The position numbers and the translations under genes were made by a program. A model generated the notes under the pieces. That model was not told where the DNA came from and did no database searches. It saw only the letters and a list, made by a program, of their open reading frames with translations. A stretch of DNA of 64,000 nt from Chloroflexota bacterium. Lineage in GTDB: Bacteria; Chloroflexota; UBA11872. Shown here piece after piece: positions 9,740-34,801 of this stretch. Every line of letters starts with the position of its first letter. The stretch's first letter is position 1. The stretch is taken from NCBI GenBank assembly GCA_022825895.1, contig JAJDVX010000010.1, forward strand, positions 124,001-188,000, given 5' to 3'.

Positions 9740-10939
9740 CTAGCGCTTCGTACCCCGCTGCTGCACGCACGAGTAGTGGATTTGGCACACGGCCTTCCGT
9801 TCCGAATCGTCCCTCAGCCGGCCGCCGACCGAGGTCATGCGCAGGAACATACCCACAGGGGGCGACTCGAGCGCGATCGTGTTCTCCTTGCTGGAGGTGA
9901 TCGTCAAGCTGTTGGCTTCCCAGTCCTGCTGATAGACCACGGCGACGGCCTGGTCGTCGGTCAGCATTGCGTAGATGCGGCTGAAGTCCGGCCGCACGGC
10001 CACCATCTGCGGGTTCAAACCCACCCGGATGTGCGCCAGGGCCCTGAGGTCGGCCGTATCCACGACCTGCACGAAGTTGTCGTCGGCGTGGCCGGTGTAG
10101 GCGTAGCTGCCGTCCCAGGTGAAGGTCCCAAGGATGGGCTGCGTGCCGGTCTGTAAGCGCTTGACCAGCTCGAGGGCGGACGGCTCGTAGACGGCGACCG
10201 TGTGCTTGCCGGCCTCCTGGACCCAGATGGAGCCGTCGGGGGAGGTGGTGAGGCGGGTGGGATTCCCGCCCTTCTTGGACTCCGCCGTGGCGAGCACGGC
10301 GCCGCTGGAGGGATCGAGGGCCACGACCCGGTCGCCCTCGCCGGTGGGATAGACGAAACGTTCCACTCCGTCGGCGTCAATGCTGAGGTCGGCGTCGGCC
10401 AGGATGCCGCCGTGCAGCGGGACGTCGCTGAAGGTGTTGGTGACCTCGTTTGAGGCGGTGTTGACGGTGAGGACCTCACCGGCGGCCATCTTGCTAACGA
10501 GCAGCGTGCCGTCCTGCCGGGCCTTCCCGAGAAAGACGCCCTCCGCCTCGCTGCCCAGCGGCACCCGGTTACTGACGGTGAAGGTGTCGACGTCAAGCGT
10601 GATGAGCTCGGCGGTGCCGGCGTTCAGAGTGCCGAGCCACAGGTGGCGACCGTCAAAGAAGTTGTTGTCGTCGTTCCAGGCCCAACTGGCGAGGCCGTCG
10701 ACGTCGCCGGTGCGACTAACTTCCTCGGTCAGGATGTCGATGGCGGTGACGTGCGGCGAACTGTTGCTGAAGACCAGGATCTCGCCGGCGTCGCCTTGCG
10801 GCGCCTCGGCAACTCCGCCCGCCCCGCCGCCGGGCGCACTCTCCGGGCCGCCCTCGCCGCAGGCGGCGGCCAGCATGGCTACCCCAAGGCCGCCCATGCC
10901 GGCCAGCAGTCGTCGTCGCGGGAATCGGTGGGTGGTCAT
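9740..10939 (-). CDS. Tat-type lipoprotein, predicted beta-propeller, tandem copy A
   Basis: MTTHRFPRRRLLAGMGGLGVAMLAAACGEGG signal (RR motif and lipobox), YVTN-like repeated strands (VAVYEPSALELVKRLQTG; FVQVVDTADLRALAHIRVG), C-terminal CQIHYSC...GTKR. Confidence 0.75.
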   Translation of the reverse strand: MTTHRFPRRRLLAGMGGLGVAMLAAACGEGGPESAPGGGAGGVAEAPQGDAGEILVFSNSSPHVTAIDILTEEVSRTGDVDGLASWAWNDDNNFFDGRHLWLGTLNAGTAELITLDVDTFTVSNRVPLGSEAEGVFLGKARQDGTLLVSKMAAGEVLTVNTASNEVTNTFSDVPLHGGILADADLSIDADGVERFVYPTGEGDRVVALDPSSGAVLATAESKKGGNPTRLTTSPDGSIWVQEAGKHTVAVYEPSALELVKRLQTGTQPILGTFTWDGSYAYTGHADDNFVQVVDTADLRALAHIRVGLNPQMVAVRPDFSRIYAMLTDDQAVAVVYQQDWEANSLTITSSKENTIALESPPVGMFLRMTSVGGRLRDDSERKAVCQIHYSCVQQRGTKR

Positions 10940-11005
10940 CGCCTCGGTCCTTTCACGGCCGGGTCGCTGCTCGACGGCCGGCGGTGCAGCCCGGCTGGCT
11001 TGGGT

Positions 11006-12211
11006 CTAGCGCTTGGTACCCAGGTTCTGCGTGGCGCAATACGCCGACGTATGCCTGCAGGCTTCAGGCCGTTCCTGCTCGTCGCGCAGCCGGCCGCCGA
11101 CAGAGGTCATACGCAGGAACATGCCGACGGGCGGCGACTCCAGCGCGATTGAGTTCTCCTTGGCGGAGGTGATCGTCAAGCTGTTGGCTTCCCAGTCCTG
11201 CTGATAGACCACGGCGACGGCCTGGTCGTCGGTCAGCATCGCGTAAATGCGCGTGAAGTCGGGGCGCACGGCCACCATCAGCGGGCTGAGGCCGACGCGG
11301 ATATGGGCCAGGGCGCGGAGGTCGGCGGTGTCCACGACCTGGACGAAGTTGTCGTCGGCGTGGCCGGTGTAGGCATAGCTGCCATCGTAGGTAAAGGTGC
11401 CCAGGATGGGCTCGGTGCCGGTCTGGAAGCGCTTGACAAGTTCCAGGGTCGAGGGCTCGTAGACCGCCACGGTGTGCTTGCCGGCCTCCTGGACCCAGAT
11501 GGAGCCGTCGGGGGAGGCCGTGAGTCGGGTGGGGGTGCCGCCCGACTTGGACTCAGCGGTCGCGAGCACGGCGCCGCTGCTCGGGTCGAGGGCGACGACC
11601 CGGTCGCCTTCGCCGGTCGGATAGACGAAGCGTTCGACACCGTCGGCGTCGGTACTGAGGTCGGCGTCGGCCAGCACGCCGCCGTGCAGCGGCACGTCGC
11701 TGAAGGTGTTGGTGACCTCATGGGTGGCGGTGTTGACCGTCAGAACCTCGCCGGCCGCCATCTTGCTCACCAGCAGCGAGCCGTCCTGGCGGGCCTTGCC
11801 GAGGAAGACGCCCTCGGCCTCGCTGCCCAGCGGCACCCGGTTGCTGACCGTCAGGGCGTCGACATCGAGCGTGATGAGTTCGGCGGTCCCGGCGTTGAGG
11901 GTGCCGAGCCACAGGTGGCGACCGTCAAAGAAGTTGTTGTCGTCATTCCAGGCCCAGGTGCCGAGCCCATCGACATCCCCGGTGCGGGTGACTTCCTCGG
12001 TGAGGATGTCGATGGCGGTGACATGCGGCGAACTGTTGCTGAAGACCAGGATCTCACCGGCGTCGCCGACCGGCGCCTCGGCGCCCCCGCCCGCCGCGCC
12101 GCCGGGGGAACTCTCCAGTCCACCCTCGCCGCAGGCGGCGGCCAGCACGGCCATCCCAAGGCCGCCCATGCCGGCCAGCAGTCGTCGTCGCGGGAACTGT
12201 GAGGTGCTCAT
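11006..12211 (-). CDS. Tat-type lipoprotein, predicted beta-propeller, tandem copy B
   Basis: MSTSQFPRRRLLAGMGGLGMAVLAAACGEGG; nearly identical to copies A and C; C-terminal CRHTSAYC...GTKR. Confidence 0.75.
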   Translation of the reverse strand: MSTSQFPRRRLLAGMGGLGMAVLAAACGEGGLESSPGGAAGGGAEAPVGDAGEILVFSNSSPHVTAIDILTEEVTRTGDVDGLGTWAWNDDNNFFDGRHLWLGTLNAGTAELITLDVDALTVSNRVPLGSEAEGVFLGKARQDGSLLVSKMAAGEVLTVNTATHEVTNTFSDVPLHGGVLADADLSTDADGVERFVYPTGEGDRVVALDPSSGAVLATAESKSGGTPTRLTASPDGSIWVQEAGKHTVAVYEPSTLELVKRFQTGTEPILGTFTYDGSYAYTGHADDNFVQVVDTADLRALAHIRVGLSPLMVAVRPDFTRIYAMLTDDQAVAVVYQQDWEANSLTITSAKENSIALESPPVGMFLRMTSVGGRLRDEQERPEACRHTSAYCATQNLGTKR

Positions 12212-12277
12212 TGCCTCGGTCCTTTCGCGGCCGGGTCGCTGCTCGTCTGCCGGCGGTGCAGCCCGGCCGACATTGGT

Positions 12278-13477
12278 CTAGCGCTTGGTGCCCAGGTTCT
12301 GCGTGCCACAGGCGTACGAAATCTTGCAGGCTTCAGCCCGCTCGGCGGAGTCGCGCAGGCGGCCGCCCACAGAGGTCATGCGTAGGAACATGCCCACGGG
12401 TGGCGACTCCAGCGCGACCGAATTCTCCTTCGTGGAGGTGATCGTCGAACTGTTGGCTTCCCAGTCCTGCTGATAGACCACGGCGACAGCCTGGTCGTCG
12501 GTCAGCATGGCGTAGATGCGGCTGAAGTCGGGCCGCACGGCCACCATCTGCGGCGTCATGCCGACCCGGATGTGGGCCAGGGCCCGCAACTGGGCCGTGT
12601 CGACGACCTGCACGAAATTGTCGTCGGCATGGCCGGTGTAGGCGTAACTGCCGTCGTAAGTAAACGTGCCGAGAATGGGTTCCGTGCCGGTCTGGAAGCG
12701 CTTGACCAACTCAAGGGCAGCCGGTTCATAGACGGCCACTGTGTGCTTGCCGGCCTCCTGGACCCAGATGGACCCGTCGGGCGAAGTGGTGAGACGGGTG
12801 GGATTTCCGCCTTTCTTGGACTCCGCCGTCGCCAGGACGGACCCGCTGCTCGGGTCGAGGGCGACGACCCGGTCGCCTTCACCGGTGGGATAGACGAAGC
12901 GTTCCACCCCGTCGGCGTCGATGCTCAGGTCGGCGTCGGCCAGCACGCCGCCGTGCAGCGGAATGTCGCTGAAGGAGTTGGTGACCTCATGCGTGGCGGT
13001 GTTGACCGTGAGGACCTCGCCGGCGGCCATCTTGCTGACGAGCAGCGTGCCGTCCTGGCGGGCCTTGCCGAGGAATACGCCATCCGCCTCGCTGCCCAGC
13101 GGCACCCGGTTACTGACGGTGAACGTGTCGACGTCAAGCGTGATGAGCTCGGCGGTGCCGGCGTTCAGAGTGCCGAGCCACAGGTGGCGGCCGTCGAAGA
13201 AGTTGTTGTCGTCGTTCCAGGCCCAACTGACCAGGCCGTCGACGTCGCCGGTGCGACTGACTTCCTCCGTGAGGATGTCGATGGCGGTGACATGCGGGGA
13301 ACTGTTGCTGAACACCAGGATCTCGCCGGCGTCACCTTGCGGCGCGGCTTCTGCGCCCGTGCCGCCCCTGGGCGCGCTTTCCGGCCCGCCCTCGCCGCAG
13401 GCGGCCGCCAGCGCGGCCACGCCAAGGCCGCCCATGCCGGCCAGCAGTCGTCGTCGCGGGAATCGGTGGGTGGTCAT
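12278..13477 (-). CDS. Tat-type lipoprotein, predicted beta-propeller, tandem copy C
   Basis: MTTHRFPRRRLLAGMGGLGVAALAAACGEGG; nearly identical to copies A and B; C-terminal CKISYAC...GTKR. Confidence 0.75.
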   Translation of the reverse strand: MTTHRFPRRRLLAGMGGLGVAALAAACGEGGPESAPRGGTGAEAAPQGDAGEILVFSNSSPHVTAIDILTEEVSRTGDVDGLVSWAWNDDNNFFDGRHLWLGTLNAGTAELITLDVDTFTVSNRVPLGSEADGVFLGKARQDGTLLVSKMAAGEVLTVNTATHEVTNSFSDIPLHGGVLADADLSIDADGVERFVYPTGEGDRVVALDPSSGSVLATAESKKGGNPTRLTTSPDGSIWVQEAGKHTVAVYEPAALELVKRFQTGTEPILGTFTYDGSYAYTGHADDNFVQVVDTAQLRALAHIRVGMTPQMVAVRPDFSRIYAMLTDDQAVAVVYQQDWEANSSTITSTKENSVALESPPVGMFLRMTSVGGRLRDSAERAEACKISYACGTQNLGTKR

Positions 13478-13816
13478 CGTCTCGGTCCTTTCACGGCCGG
13501 GTCACTGCCGGTCCGAGGACAAAACAGGGCGACGCTACCTCCCGGCGCCAGCCCGAAGACCCGGGTCGGCGGCATCGCGCGTCGCGCGCTGATTAATCGT
13601 GCCTGCATGCGCCTGAACCCACGCGGCTCATGTCGCGAATTCACAGCTTCTGAAAGTATAGCGCCGACCGCGTTTCCAACGGAAACCGACCACCGGCATC
13701 TTCGAGGATTCGAGAATGCGGGCCGCCTCGCGTCAAACTAGCCTTCAGCAGCCGCGCAAGGCAAAATCCCCGCATCCGCGCGGCAATCGAGCCGCACCGA
13801 CATAGGCAGCCGCTTC

Positions 13817-27772: not shown

Positions 27773-29476
27773 ATGCTCGTCACGCTCACGCTCGGTTCGC
27801 TGCTGCGCACGCTGCCGCCCACCCTCAGCAAGATCGCCATCGACGACGGCGTGCGGGCCAACAACCTGAACGTGCTGTTCGTGACCGTCGGCCTGTTCGT
27901 TGGGGCCGTGCTGCTATCCAACGTCGCCATGGCGGGGCGTCTCTACGCCGCCCGCTACAGCGCCCAGAAGGTCATCCACGACATCCGCAACGACCTCTAC
28001 ACCCATCTCAGCGCCAAGTCCATGAGCTTTTTCGACCGGCACCAGACCGGCGACCTGATGTCCCGGGTCACCAACGACGTCAACATGATTCAGTTCTTCT
28101 TCAACATGGCCGGCACCGTGATCCTCTCGTCGATCGCCCTCACCGCCATGAACCTGATCTTCATGTTCGCGCTGGACTGGGTGATGGCGCTCGCCATCAT
28201 TGCCCTGGTCCCCTTCTTCATCGCCATGCAGTCCGTCGCCAAGCGCGTGGTGCCGCTCTTTCGCCAATCAAATCAGCAGATGGGCGTAGTCAACGTCGAG
28301 ATCCGCGAGGCCATCTCCGGCATCAAGGTCATCCAGGCCTTCGGCCGCGAGCAGTACCAGGAAGAACGTTTCGACCGCGAAAACTGGAAGCTGCGCGATC
28401 TCCGCACCCGCGTGCTGCGCACCTTCGCCCTTTACTCCCAGGGCATCGAGCTGATCGCCGGCGCCGCCACGGCCCTGATTCTCGGCCTCGGCGCTTGGCG
28501 GATTGTCAACGGCGACTTCACGCTCGGCGGCCTGGTGGCCTTCCAGGGTTACCTGCTGCTGATGCTGCAACCCACCCGGTTCCTCGGATTCGCCGTCCAG
28601 ATCACCCAGCAGGCCGTCACCTCCGGCGAGCGCGTCTTCCAGATCATCGACACCCCGCTGGACGTGCAGGAAAAGCCCGACGCGCACCCGTTGCCCGAAG
28701 TCCGCGGCGAAATCGAATTCGACCGCGTCACCTTCCAGTACGGCGACCGCGACCCGATCCTGCGCGACGTGTCGGTCCACGTGCCGGCCGGCGGATCGCT
28801 CGCCATCGTCGGCCGCAGCGGCTCGGGCAAGAGCACCCTGGCCAACCTGTTGCCCCGCTTCTACGACCCCACCGAGGGCGCCATCCGCGTCGATGGCCAC
28901 GACCTGCGTGACATCCGCCTGCAAGACCTCAGGTCCGGCATCGGCATGGTCATGCAGGAGACCTTCCTCTTCAACATGACCGTGGCCGACAACCTGCGCT
29001 TCGGCCGCAAAGACGCCTCCCACGAGGATCTGGAAGCCGCGGCGCGCATGGCCGCCGCCCACGACTTCATCACGGACTTGCCCCAGGGCTACGACACGCT
29101 CATCGGCGACCGCGGCGTGCGGCTCTCCGGCGGCCAGCGCCAGCGGGTCGCCATTGCCCGCGCCCTCCTCGTGCGACCGGCAATCCTGGTCCTGGACGAG
29201 GCCACCTCCAGCGTCGACACCCGCACCGACCGCGCCATCCAGCGCGCCCTCGAGCAGCTGATGCAGGAGCGCACCACCATCGTGATCGCCCACCGGCTGT
29301 CGACCATTCGCCGGGTCGACCAGATCATCGTGGTTGACGGCGGCCGCATCGTCGCCCGCGGCACGCACGAAGAGTTGCTGGAAACCAGCGACGACTACCG
29401 CGCCATCTACGAGCTTCAATTCCGTCTGCAGGAAGAGTCCCTGGCGATTGAGGCCGGCGGGCAGGTCAGCGTCTGA
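27773..29476 (+). CDS. ABC exporter half-transporter (TMD-NBD), subunit 1; true start probably upstream
   Basis: Walker A GRSGSGKST, signature LSGGQRQR, Walker B ILVLDEATSSVD; upstream in-frame codons read LIRILWRLILYLRSQKLLLAG before the first ATG. Confidence 0.93.
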   Translation: MLVTLTLGSLLRTLPPTLSKIAIDDGVRANNLNVLFVTVGLFVGAVLLSNVAMAGRLYAARYSAQKVIHDIRNDLYTHLSAKSMSFFDRHQTGDLMSRVTNDVNMIQFFFNMAGTVILSSIALTAMNLIFMFALDWVMALAIIALVPFFIAMQSVAKRVVPLFRQSNQQMGVVNVEIREAISGIKVIQAFGREQYQEERFDRENWKLRDLRTRVLRTFALYSQGIELIAGAATALILGLGAWRIVNGDFTLGGLVAFQGYLLLMLQPTRFLGFAVQITQQAVTSGERVFQIIDTPLDVQEKPDAHPLPEVRGEIEFDRVTFQYGDRDPILRDVSVHVPAGGSLAIVGRSGSGKSTLANLLPRFYDPTEGAIRVDGHDLRDIRLQDLRSGIGMVMQETFLFNMTVADNLRFGRKDASHEDLEAAARMAAAHDFITDLPQGYDTLIGDRGVRLSGGQRQRVAIARALLVRPAILVLDEATSSVDTRTDRAIQRALEQLMQERTTIVIAHRLSTIRRVDQIIVVDGGRIVARGTHEELLETSDDYRAIYELQFRLQEESLAIEAGGQVSV

Positions 29477-31266
29477 TGGGTATGCGTCAGACCTACGTCG
29501 ACACCTCCAACCTCAGCGGCCGCACCGTCGCCGGCACCCTGCGGCGCTTGCTCTACTACGTCGGTTTGCACCGGCGCCACATCGGGATCGCCTTCGTTGC
29601 GCTGTCCATCGCCTCCCTCTTGAACATGGTGCCGCCCTGGGCCTTGAAGATCGCGGTTGACGACTTCATCCCACAAGCGGACGCGGCCGGGGCGGTGCGC
29701 ATCGCCGGCGCCATGATGCTGGTCTACCTCGCCCGCGGCGCGCTCAACTACCTGAACTTCTACCTCTTCGCGCGCAGCAGCCAGACCATCGTCTACCAGG
29801 TGTCGCGCGACATGTTCGTCCGGCTGGTGCGTCACTCCATGCGTTTCTTCGAGAGCCAGCGCACCGGCGAGACGGTCTCGCACTTGACCGCCGATGTCAC
29901 CGCCGTCCAGCAGGCCATGCAGGGCCAGGTGCTCACCGCCAGCGCGGGCATCGTCACCATGCTCCTGTACCTGGTCGTCATGCTGACGCTCGACTGGCGC
30001 CTGACGCTGGTGATCCTATCCGTGGTGCCCCTGATGCTGATCGCCAGCGTCATTACCGCCCGGATGCTCCGCGTGCGCTACCGCCGCGTGCAGGAATCCA
30101 TCGCCAACATCAACACCGCCATCGAGGAAAACGTCAGCGGTGTGCGTGTCAGCCGCGCCTTCGCCCGCGAGGAAGCCGACGCTCGCCGCTTCCAGACCGA
30201 GAACCGCGCCAACCTCCAGGCCAACCTCAACACTACGATGGTGGAATCCATTGCCACGCCCGTGATCGAAGGCCTCAGCACCCTCAGCGTGGCCGCCCTC
30301 CTGGCCTACGGCGGCTGGCAGATCACGATTGGCGAGATGCAGCCCGGCACGCTCATCGCCTTCCTGGCCTACGTGCAGATCTTCCACCAGCCCATGACAG
30401 AGCTCGTGCGTGTCAACTACGTCATCCAGTCCGGCCTGGCCGCCGCCGACCGCATCTTCCAGTTCATGGACGTCCCGCGCCACATCGTCAATCGGCCGTC
30501 GGCGGTCGATCTGGTCCGGCCGCGCGGACGCGTCGAGTTCCGCAACGTCGACTTCAGCTACGACGGCGTCACCCCGGTCCTCCAGGACGTGTCCGTGACC
30601 GCCGAACCCGGCCAGACCGTCGCGCTCGTTGGAGCCACGGGATCCGGCAAGACCACCATGGTCAACCTCATCGCCCGCTTCTACGACCCCACCTCGGGCC
30701 AGATCCTGGTAGACGGCAACGACCTGCGCGACGTCCGGATGGAGAGCCTCCGCTCACGTCTGGCCTACGTCCCCCAGGAGACCTTCCTGTTCAGCGGCAC
30801 AGTCGCCGAGAACATCCGCTACGGAAACCCCGATGCCGGCGACGACCAGGTCGCCGCCGCGGCCGCATTGGCGCGTGCCGACGACTTCATCGAGCAACTG
30901 GACGACGGCTACGAAACCATCGTCGGCGACGGCGGCCTGCGGCTCTCACGCGGCCAGCAGCAGCGCGTGGCCCTGGCCCGCGCGATCCTGGCCGACCCCG
31001 CCGTGCTCGTGCTCGACGAAGCCACTTCCGACATTGACACCGAATCCGAATACGAGATTCAGCAGGCCCTGGTCCAGGTCATGCGCAACCGCACCAGCTT
31101 CGTCATCGCCCACCGCCTCTCCACCATCCGCAACGCCGACCTCATCGTCGTGCTCGATGAAGGCCGCATCGTCCAGCGCGGCCCCCACACCGAACTCATC
31201 GCCCAACCCGGCCCCTACCGCGACCTCCACGCCGCCCAATTCGACGACCCACCCCCTCCTTCGTAG
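29476..31266 (+). CDS. ABC exporter half-transporter (TMD-NBD), subunit 2
   Basis: Walker A GATGSGKTT, signature LSRGQQQR, Walker B VLVLDEATSDID; start overlaps the stop of subunit 1. Confidence 0.93.
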   Translation: MGMRQTYVDTSNLSGRTVAGTLRRLLYYVGLHRRHIGIAFVALSIASLLNMVPPWALKIAVDDFIPQADAAGAVRIAGAMMLVYLARGALNYLNFYLFARSSQTIVYQVSRDMFVRLVRHSMRFFESQRTGETVSHLTADVTAVQQAMQGQVLTASAGIVTMLLYLVVMLTLDWRLTLVILSVVPLMLIASVITARMLRVRYRRVQESIANINTAIEENVSGVRVSRAFAREEADARRFQTENRANLQANLNTTMVESIATPVIEGLSTLSVAALLAYGGWQITIGEMQPGTLIAFLAYVQIFHQPMTELVRVNYVIQSGLAAADRIFQFMDVPRHIVNRPSAVDLVRPRGRVEFRNVDFSYDGVTPVLQDVSVTAEPGQTVALVGATGSGKTTMVNLIARFYDPTSGQILVDGNDLRDVRMESLRSRLAYVPQETFLFSGTVAENIRYGNPDAGDDQVAAAAALARADDFIEQLDDGYETIVGDGGLRLSRGQQQRVALARAILADPAVLVLDEATSDIDTESEYEIQQALVQVMRNRTSFVIAHRLSTIRNADLIVVLDEGRIVQRGPHTELIAQPGPYRDLHAAQFDDPPPPS

Positions 31267-31303
31267 CGGCCGGTTTCTAACCGGCCTCTTCCGCTCGTGA
31301 TCC
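31262..31303. repeat. REP-like palindrome family 1, copy 1
   Basis: cgtagcggccggtttctaaccggcctcttccgctcgtgatcc; 41/42 identical to copy 2; core GGCCGGTTtctAACCGGCC. Confidence 0.85.
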
Positions 31304-31324
31304 CACGGCCCAACCCCAACGCCG

Positions 31325-31969
31325 CTACCCCGACTCCCCCTCCCGCTTCAACCACCACCGCAACGGATTTTCCGCGATGTACTCCCGAATCCGGTTCAAG
31401 TCCTCCTCATTCCGAACCACATGCTCATAAAACCCCCGCTGCCACACCGCCGTCCCCGGCGTCCCCCGCATTGCATTCACCCGCCGGCCCGAATACGTCT
31501 TGAACCCCCTGACAACCTCCGGCAACCCATGCCGCCGCATCTTCGCGGGGGCTCCCTCCTGCGTACGGGCCTCATCTTGCGTAGGGGCCGGTTTCTAACC
31601 GGCCTCTTCCGCTCGTGATCCAACAGTCGCACTCCCCAACGCCGGGCCGGAATCCGAACCCGCTTCCGAGTCCCCATCCATAAGAACAACAATCCCATGC
31701 ACGTGATCCGGCATCACCACAAACGCATCCAGCGCCACGTACGGGTAATGCACTGGCAATTCGTTCCAAACCCCTTCCACCGCCCGCCCCGCCGAATTCA
31801 ACGCCATCCGGCCGTCCCTGACCCGACCAAACAAATGCTTCCGCCAGTCCGTGCAAATCGTCACCGAATACGCCCCATCCTGCGAATAATCGTATTCCCG
31901 CAACCGCCGCGGCCGGGCAACACGTCGCCCCGTCCCGTCGTCGTCCCGAATCAGCGCCGCTTCTCCCAT
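31325..31969 (-). pseudogene. REP-associated tyrosine transposase (RAYT, Y1/IS200-like TnpA_REP), one in-frame TAG
   Basis: N-part PRRLREYDYSQDGAYSVTICTDWRKHLFG...DAFVVMPDHVHGIVVL (HUH) and C-part RRHGLPEVVRGFKTYSGRRVNAMRGTPGTAVWQRGFYEHVVRNEEDLNRIREYIAENPLRWW lie in the same frame, separated by a single TAG at 31595-31597 inside REP copy 2. An N-terminal extension to 32065 is possible. Confidence 0.85.
31580..31621. repeat. REP-like palindrome family 1, copy 2 (inside the RAYT gene)
   Basis: cgtaggggccggtttctaaccggcctcttccgctcgtgatcc. Confidence 0.88.
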
Positions 31970-32025
31970 CCTTGGTGGGGATCGGTCCCCGACCCGTCGC
32001 TTCCCGTCCGGCGTCCCCATTCTGT

Positions 32026-32054
32026 CGTAGGGGCCGCGTCTCTGACCGGCCTCT
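32026..32054. repeat. REP-like family 1, copy 3 (divergent)
   Basis: cgtaggggccgcgtctctgaccggcctct. Confidence 0.65.
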
Positions 32055-32075
32055 GGTTGTTCCAACTGATCTTGG

Positions 32076-32110
32076 CGTAGGGGACGGTTTCTAACCGGCC
32101 TCTTCCGGTC
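32076..32110. repeat. REP-like family 1, copy 4
   Basis: cgtaggggacggtttctaaccggcctcttccggtc. Confidence 0.8.
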
Positions 32111-32131
32111 GAAGCGCCAAGTTCTTCCTTA

Positions 32132-32167
32132 GTGAGCCGGTTCGGAGTCATTCGCAAACCCGTGTCG
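32132..32167. repeat. Short interspersed repeat family 2, copy 1
   Basis: gtgagccggttcggagtcattcgcaaacccgtgtcg; 32/36 identical to copy 2. Confidence 0.75.
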
Positions 32168-32241
32168 CCCCCGGATGAAGGGATGGTGTCCCCGGCCCGC
32201 CCATCTTCCGCTCCCTCCGCCATCCGAGTGTCGCAACCTTA

Positions 32242-32275
32242 CGTAGGGGCCGGTTTGTAACCGGCCTCTTCCGGG
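32242..32275. repeat. REP-like family 1, copy 5
   Basis: cgtaggggccggtttgtaaccggcctcttccggg. Confidence 0.82.
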
Positions 32276-32602
32276 CAGCCAACCTTCAGCTCGCCGCCCC
32301 CGTTCAAGGTGAGCCACCCCCGTCATACGCCGGTGCCTCGACACTTGTAGGGGTACCCCAGAGCAGGGTCTCGCAAGGCAACCGCGCCGCTGCGGAGAGC
32401 GCGCGTCCCCAGACCGCGAGACGCATTCCCGGCGAGCCTGCCCTGAGCCTGCCGAATGGCGCCGGAACCCAGCAGCAACCAACACCCTCGCCATCCCCCA
32501 GCCACTATCCACCAACCACGAACCACTTCTCCTCACCGGCGTCCGCGCCGTTCGTCCTGTTAGCGTGAGCGTCCTGTTCAATGAGTCGAGTGGCGATTAG
32601 TC

Positions 32603-33223
32603 ATGGTTGAACCGGCGCCATTCCAGCAGTGGCTTGCGGCACAGGCGTCGACAGTCGACCCCTTCGACCATATTCGCGAGGCCAGCGAAGCGCACCGCCA
32701 ACAGCATGGCGCGGCCTGCACGGTCTATCCCACGTCCAGGGCCCCATTGTGGGGCGTCATTGCCGGTGCAATCCGTCCAAACCGAATCCTCGAAATCGGT
32801 ACTGGCCTCGGGCATAGCGCCCTCTGGCTGGCCTACGGAGCGCCAGAGGCCGACGTCACCACCATCGAAGCCGACCCCGTCCATGCCGCGCTCGCTCGGG
32901 CCAATGTGCGGAAGGCGGGTTACGCGGACCGGATTGAAATTGTCAACGCACGCGCAATCGACTTCCTCGCCGATTGCGACGAGCAGGTCGACATCATCTT
33001 CTGCGACTGCGACGTGGACGAGTACGGCGACTATCCCACCCACGTCATGCGGCTGCTCCGGGTAGGCGGCTTGCTCATCACCGCCAACCTCTTCGCTGGC
33101 TGGTACACACCCGGCATGCCGGGACTCGATGCCGCAGTCGCCTACCGCGACCGGGTACTCGCAGACCCGCGCCTGCTCTCCACCTTCCTGGGCGCCAACG
33201 CCATCAGCCTCCGCACCCCCTAA
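32603..33223 (+). CDS. Class I SAM-dependent O-methyltransferase-like protein
   Basis: SRAPLWGVIAGAIRPNRILEIGTGLGHSALWLAYGAPEADVTTIEADPVHAALARANVRKAGYADRIEIV. Confidence 0.8.
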   Translation: MVEPAPFQQWLAAQASTVDPFDHIREASEAHRQQHGAACTVYPTSRAPLWGVIAGAIRPNRILEIGTGLGHSALWLAYGAPEADVTTIEADPVHAALARANVRKAGYADRIEIVNARAIDFLADCDEQVDIIFCDCDVDEYGDYPTHVMRLLRVGGLLITANLFAGWYTPGMPGLDAAVAYRDRVLADPRLLSTFLGANAISLRTP

Positions 33224-33340
33224 CTCCACCAACCACACACCCACGGCCCCGCCCGCACTGCCCCCGATCCACCGGCAGGCCGAAGCGCCCCACGCCAGCG
33301 CCGCCGTGGAAACTCCCCAATGCATCCCCTACCATTCGTG

Positions 33341-33376
33341 GTGAGCCGGCTCGGAGTCTTTCGGAGACCCGTGTCG
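33341..33376. repeat. Short interspersed repeat family 2, copy 2
   Basis: gtgagccggctcggagtctttcggagacccgtgtcg. Confidence 0.75.
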
Positions 33377-33547
33377 AACCACCCGCCGGACGCAGCACCC
33401 AACCCTCCGTCCTCCGGCGTCCTCAGCCAGGGCCCGGCGCCCCGGGCAATCTAGGCGCACACTGCTGCCCGGTTTGCTCCCTCGCTCCCGAGTCCGCGGT
33501 CCGCAGTACCCGCCAAGTACATTCGAGCTCGACAGATTGACCGGGAT

Positions 33548-34435
33548 CTACGCAGTAGGAGCCAGGTAGTGAACGGGTCGAAGTGGAAACAGCTGTTGCG
33601 CTTCCTCGGAGATCTTCGCGTAGTGTTCGATCCAGAGTTCGACGAAACGCTCGAGATCGACCAGGGTAATTCGGCGTCGCTCTTGTGTTCGCGCTTCGCG
33701 CTGGGCATCTCGGGTGAAGCCTCCCGCGGACACGAAGATGCCAATGTCCTCGTCGCCAAGCACGGCTAGGAACGCCCGAAGCCCATCAACGTTTGTTGCA
33801 TCCGCCCGGCGCTTGACCTGCACCTTCAGTCTCGGCGAGGCGGCTCCAAGCGGGTCGGCCGACGCAACGATGTCGATTCCCTGATCCTGTCCTGGCGGCG
33901 ACACCCACTGAACGTGATAGGACATCGCTTCCAGCAGTCCGGCCACGAGATCTTGAAACTCGTAAGGGTTGATGGCTAGGAGGAAGCTCTTGATCTCTGT
34001 CCAGGCAGTCTCTTCCGCCTCTTCCAGTACCGACCCCGGACTAGGTGCCGCATCGTCATCCAGGTCGGTCGCCGGATCAGGCTGCTTGGCGCGCCACTCG
34101 CCGTAAAGCCGGCCCGCCTCCCGAAAGAGATCCTCGGGGTCCGGGAATTGCTCCAGAGCCGCGCGCCCTTCGTCTGTGACTGTCCACATACCCCGCTGTT
34201 TCACCATCCATCCAGCCTTCACCGGAGCGATGGTCGAAAAGCGAACGATATTGGGAAAGCGTCGAATGCCGGGCCGGTTCGGATACTCGCTGTCTTCGAA
34301 CGGCGTGGCTTGAAGAACTTCCTCGACGCGGTCCACCGCCGCACGCGCAGAGAGTCCGTCGGGTGCCTCGGCCAGGATTCTGAGGAGGGCCTGGGTCATT
34401 TCACCCTGCCGCCGTCGGGTGATTTCGGGCATCAC
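33548..34435 (-). CDS. Mrr-like restriction endonuclease (PD-(D/E)XK)
   Basis: N-terminal winged-helix-like Mrr_N region; NPYEFQDLVAGLLEAMSYHVQWVSPPGQDQGIDIVAS...LKVQVKRR catalytic core. Confidence 0.82.
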   Translation of the reverse strand: MMPEITRRRQGEMTQALLRILAEAPDGLSARAAVDRVEEVLQATPFEDSEYPNRPGIRRFPNIVRFSTIAPVKAGWMVKQRGMWTVTDEGRAALEQFPDPEDLFREAGRLYGEWRAKQPDPATDLDDDAAPSPGSVLEEAEETAWTEIKSFLLAINPYEFQDLVAGLLEAMSYHVQWVSPPGQDQGIDIVASADPLGAASPRLKVQVKRRADATNVDGLRAFLAVLGDEDIGIFVSAGGFTRDAQREARTQERRRITLVDLERFVELWIEHYAKISEEAQQLFPLRPVHYLAPTA

Positions 34436-34801
34436 ACGTTCCCCGTCGAACTCGAGTACCGGAACTGAAGCGAATCGTACCGAAGCGGCTGCTTTCGCTG
34501 CCTCGTTGAAGCGGACTCCGCCTGACCGCCCAACGATCCGGCGCTGACCTTGACCTCACCCTCATAAGATTGTACACTATCTGAGTAACCTCTGCGAGTC
34601 AATGTCCCGTGCCCGGCGCCCGTTTCCCGCTGCTGCCGCCCCTCCGTCACTCTGGCCTCCGCGTCTGGAATCCAGCCCTCGCCCCACGCTTCGCCACGGG
34701 TTGCCGGTACGTGCCACCCCGCGCAGCCGGTCGCTCGACGCGGTCAGCGGTACGATGAGCGTCCGGCCCCGACCTGCGGCGCCGCCGCATCCTGAGTCCT
34801 G

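Follow-up and report, generated by a model that had tools for sequence, protein, structure and literature searches.

A 64,000-nt stretch of a Chloroflexota bacterium genome (GenBank assembly GCA_022825895.1, contig JAJDVX010000010.1, positions 124,001 to 188,000; hereafter the window) contains a gene for a REP-associated tyrosine transposase (RAYT, also TnpA_REP) with a repetitive extragenic palindrome (REP) inside its coding sequence. The initial annotation, made from the letters of the window alone, had reported that the REP lies within its own RAYT gene and creates a single in-frame amber codon, and this is borne out by the reading frame, the family profile matches and the catalytic motifs. 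We conclude that the element is of a known type, a REPtron with a REP in the transposase linker, and that this gene is probably a recent pseudogene; a fresh pseudogene was among several options originally listed, and it fits the data best.

The two open reading frames (ORFs) that make up the gene are in a single frame, and between them lie only the TAG at 31595-31597 and 18 sense codons. Translation through the linker reads GSRAEEAG*KPAPTQDEARTQEGAPAKMRRHGLPEVV, in which that TAG is the sole stop. The NCBIfam family REP_Tyr_transpos (NF047646) matches the two halves consecutively, with profile positions 6-71 in one and 71-133 in the other, each half alone scoring under the cut-off of 80 bits. 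Pfam PF01797 was below threshold on the gene, and a profile search of its own genome with PF01797 also gave no match above threshold. Every invariant column of a 14-member alignment is kept, including DHVHG, WQ and Y...NP. Membership of the RAYT/TnpA_REP family (class 2 TnpA_Y1) is thus indicated by the HUH, W-Q and Y---NP motifs and the family profile, as well as by REPs that flank the gene and are dispersed in the genome; the family calls for an uninterrupted reading frame, however, and with its TAG this gene is a broken member. A search for other RAYT copies in the genome found the window gene alone. As to the limits of the gene, the frame and stop given earlier stand, while the proposed start at TTG 32065 does not: ATG 31969 is the likely start, because the stretch above it holds the remnant of an upstream REP. 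A possible internal start, ATG 31540, is present in the C-terminal half.

In an AlphaFold model built from homologues, residues 88-126, which lie between two confident domains, all have a predicted local distance difference test score (pLDDT) below 50, and the TAG falls inside this stretch at about residue 112. The solved structure closest in fold is 4er8, TnpA_REP in complex with a REP hairpin. The segment WQRGFYEHVVR has counterparts of all the residues discussed as contacts to the GTAG guide in E. coli TnpA_REP, namely W94, Q95, E100, H101 and R104 (PMC6006769).

The linker REP hairpin belongs to a unit of ~45 nt (GGATCACGAGCGGAAGAGG...CCCCTACG) and has a folding z score of -4.1 as single-stranded DNA. 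It shares an identical stretch of 36 nt with the downstream REP, the two copies being 318 nt apart. Of the four related REP copies at the locus, two precede the gene, one is inside it and one follows it, which makes the locus a REPtron. Across the 3.54-Mb genome (G000, a draft of 44 contigs) there are 8 exact and at least 13 near copies, compared with 1-3 control matches, which shows the family to be real. TTAGAA is the commonest core in this genome, and also among the listed REP copies of the congeners G001, G004 and G010. About two thirds of the 24 REP loci listed for G000 read TAG in the linker frame. The remaining loci read TAC, TGG or TTG, the last being the variant that the initial annotation had envisaged as translated.

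A REP in the linker is not peculiar to the window gene, having already been published for TnpA_REP subclass 2.4 (PMC6006769). We surveyed 175 distinct genes of this RAYT kind, of which 95 come from Chloroflexota whole genomes and the other 80 from named records across many phyla. These counts are phylogenetically non-independent. The phylum of the whole genomes was recognized from one locus with 100% identity over 3.5 kb to a named Chloroflexi record. Linkers were scored for repeats shared with the gene's own flanks (+/-1.4 kb), and control segments of the same length were taken from the N- and C-terminal domains. Such a repeat is present in 78 of the 175 linkers, compared with 6 N-terminal and 0 C-terminal segments; together with the low pLDDT of the linker, this supports the earlier claim that the REP occupies a variable linker of its cognate RAYT. 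Only one of the 175 genes, the window RAYT, has an in-frame stop in the linker. If the flanking copies were read in random frames, about 21 of the 78 flank-shared linker REPs would be expected to contain a stop, against the 1 seen, and the survey thereby quantifies frame protection while extending the published feature to Chloroflexota and other phyla. Five other RAYTs surveyed each have a single premature stop outside the linker, and in that respect the lesion is ordinary. A TAG in G015 (L064) was considered as a second linker-REP stop and rejected, as it lies upstream of HUH and outside the REP. We also note that the linkers of L055 (G017), L116 and L114 (G173) and L125 (G091) contain a REP-coded peptide, such as VGAPLVGAQ or VGAKN, that has been multiplied many times over in tandem and in frame.

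Alignment with relatives, proposed earlier as a check, revealed sense-coding linker REPs in three congeners, with the cores TCGGGG in G006, TCGGGG (two copies) in G010 and TCAGAG in G012. All of these hairpins are read through, although G010 is without the HUH half. The left flank GTTGGATCACGA is common to G000 and the second linker REP of G010, whereas the hairpins differ. In G006 the linker core is that of its own downstream REP array, and in G000 it is that of its own downstream REP; the linker hairpin therefore tracks the local REP family. The G010 fragment (locus L030, G010:C22, 1345-1782) is joined to unrelated DNA at its two linker REPs, and has 90% DNA identity to the C half of the window gene up to the downstream REP.

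These comparisons suggest how the amber arose. Relative to the core TCAGAGA, TTAGAA has a stem pair changed from C:G to T:A on both sides, by which CAG becomes TAG. Judged from the sequences, replacement of the whole hairpin by TTAGAA would account for the amber better than two independent point changes, and it is the most likely origin because the linker cores of relatives are sense-coding and TTAGAA is the commonest core in the genome. We suggest the following scenario. The REPtron would be built around a transposase gene like those of subclass 2.4, with GTAG-tagged REPs on either side and one more REP, itself translated, in the disordered loop that separates HUH from Tyr. The hairpin in this loop, at first sense-coding, may in this lineage have given way to TTAGAA, the prevailing type of the genome, which spells TAG in frame; either gene conversion or an exchange of REPs could have brought this about. 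Translation would then be expected to end ahead of WQ and the catalytic Tyr, with loss of function, and the REPs would persist while the transposase gene becomes a pseudogene.

Among the congeners in which TTAGAA predominates in the listed REPs, none has an uninterrupted RAYT of this kind: besides the truncated gene of G010, the RAYT of G001 is a remnant interrupted by five stops, and no RAYT of this kind is present in G004. G005, for which few REP copies are listed, likewise has none. No CUA anticodon or suppressor tRNA is present among the tRNAs recovered, and by a rough count TAG terminates about half of the long ORFs in the window. From the common use of TAG, the missing CUA tRNA and the lack of an intact RAYT in the TTAGAA congeners, we take the TAG to be a recent inactivation. 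Several observations weigh against this. Beyond the TAG the gene has no sign of decay; its ratio of nonsynonymous to synonymous substitution rates (dN/dS) relative to G006 is 0.38 in the N half and 0.25 in the C half, with bootstrap intervals below 1, its dN is not above that between relatives, and it has not accelerated relative to G012. The stop must therefore be either very recent or tolerated. Changes on the gene's own branch in the C half (5-6 nonsynonymous, 3 synonymous) are too few to decide. In addition, the replacement event would be reconstructed from few relatives, and the sites compared are not orthologous.

Could the codon be something other than a lesion? There is a small chance that it is an assembly or consensus artefact of a metagenome-assembled genome at the 36-nt repeat, and that the real linker hairpin has a sense core. 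The draft state of the genome, the closeness of the two identical copies and the intact look of the remainder of the gene would fit an artefact; however, both flanks of each copy are unique, the copies diverge just outside the core (CCCCTACG versus CGCTACG), and 36 nt is short relative to modern reads. The chance is slimmer that the locus produces two working polypeptides, of which the first would contain HUH and stop at the TAG, and the second, the C-terminal one with Tyr, would start anew at ATG 31540. An AGGAGG lies 14 nt upstream of that ATG, but the spacing is long for a Shine-Dalgarno sequence, and the motif resembles a stretch also found 3' of other REPs in the genome. The C half is constrained (dN/dS about 0.25), and G010 has an open C half on its own; against this, 0 of 174 other genes are split at the linker. 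IS200-type dimers form active sites in trans, whereas E. coli TnpA_REP acts as a monomer.

It is very improbable that exchange of the REP core (TAG versus TAC, TGG or TTG) by gene conversion toggles the gene reversibly. Equally doubtful is the idea that core identity is a heritable on/off state, with TAG hairpins spreading into the linker by conversion and shutting the RAYT; if this were true, TAC, TGG or TTG REPs would reopen it, and the REP family would gain feedback control over its mobilizer. Both core classes are present in the genome, and the linker hairpin varies among species with its left flank kept, yet no second state of this gene was seen, no genome shows one gene in alternative states, and a recurrent switch would be expected to leave far more linker stops than the 1 present among 175 genes. 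Amber readthrough or suppression giving a low level of full-length protein is just as improbable: the frame and motifs past the TAG are intact and nonsynonymous change is not in excess, but the recovered tRNAs lack a CUA anticodon, and TAG is a common stop in the window, ending among others the neighboring ABC transporter gene. Toggling, readthrough and a split into two polypeptides had all been offered in the initial annotation, and none of them finds support here.

The surroundings of the gene are summarized in Table 1. The ABC transporter gene (29476..31266), which precedes the REPtron in the window and whose TAG stop is supplied, within 31260-31286, by the GTAG of the downstream REP, is itself conserved in 12 of the 13 genomes that represent the genus, and G008, G009 and G012 have REPs of their own at the same 3' end. 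In G001, G006, G007 and G010, valS directly follows the transporter gene; in the window it lies 3.5 kb further on, past the REPtron, the methyltransferase and the Mrr-type nuclease. The comparison from the transporter side thus supports an island specific to the lineage, without pointing to a precise insertion of the RAYT; a test for an empty site from the methyltransferase side found no synteny. Elsewhere in the window, a direct repeat of about 1.27 kb occurs three times within positions 9764-13508, the copies being 80-89% alike (tandem gene copies).

Table 1. Features of the REPtron and its surroundings, in window coordinates
Feature	Position	Strand	Remarks
RAYT/TnpA_REP gene	31325..32065	minus	two ORFs, 31595..32065 and 31325..31540
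RAYT N-terminal half	31598..31969	minus	HUH domain (DHVHG), then start of linker
Single in-frame amber	31595..31597	minus	TAG within REP core
RAYT C-terminal half	31325..31594	minus	remaining linker, helix, WQ...EH..R (REP-guide contacts), Y motif YIAENP
Linker REP hairpin	31586..31604	minus	GGCCGGTTAGAAACCGGCC; 8-bp stem, 3-nt loop
Downstream REP	31268..31286	minus	core same as linker REP
Upstream REP	32082..32100	minus	GGCCGGTTAGAAACCGTCC; one mismatch
Upstream REP	32248..32266	minus	TTACAA core; no stop if in linker frame
Decayed upstream REP	32030..32052	minus	TCAGAGAC core type; read directly
Lineage-specific 3.5-kb island	31267-34801		between ABC transporter gene and valS; absent from four congeners
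O-methyltransferase	32603..33223		in island
Mrr-type restriction endonuclease	33548..34435		in island

If the gene is indeed a pseudogene, it is a case of a transposase disabled by its own target sequence. An implication is that RAYTs of subclass 2.4, because of the REP in their coding sequence, can acquire a stop codon when the REP family changes in concert.

Finally, the window element can be compared with known systems; a literature search on RAYT stop codons found nothing relevant beyond the two articles cited here. Quentin et al. (2018) described REP insertions between HUH and Y in tnpA_REP genes of subclass 2.4, which corresponds to Bertels group 4, with the frame undisturbed (PMC6006769). 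The length of the window insert likewise keeps the frame, but its core encodes TAG. Compared by motifs alone, subclass 2.4 has NH[IFV]H, WQ and YIxNNP where the window gene has DHVH, WQ and YIAENP, and unlike the published cases its host belongs to the Chloroflexota. A REP in the linker is therefore already known; an amber inside it is unusual and looks like damage. Di Nocera et al. (2013) reported GTAG-tagged REPs and REPtrons, intragenic REPs, and TAG stops supplied by REPs (PMC3733652). The window family resembles these in being a many-copy, CGTAG-ended hairpin that flanks a RAYT and sometimes lies inside ORFs, and in giving a neighboring gene, here the ABC transporter, its TAG stop. The intragenic REPs of that study are mostly in non-transposase genes, whereas the one described here is in its cognate RAYT. 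Rickettsia palindromic elements are also palindromic repeats that lie in frame in coding genes and are translated (PMC3733652), as the linker REP is a palindrome in frame within a coding gene. They occupy many unrelated host genes, however, in ORFs that likely encode functional proteins and so are without an interrupting stop, while the window REP brings a stop into its cognate transposase.
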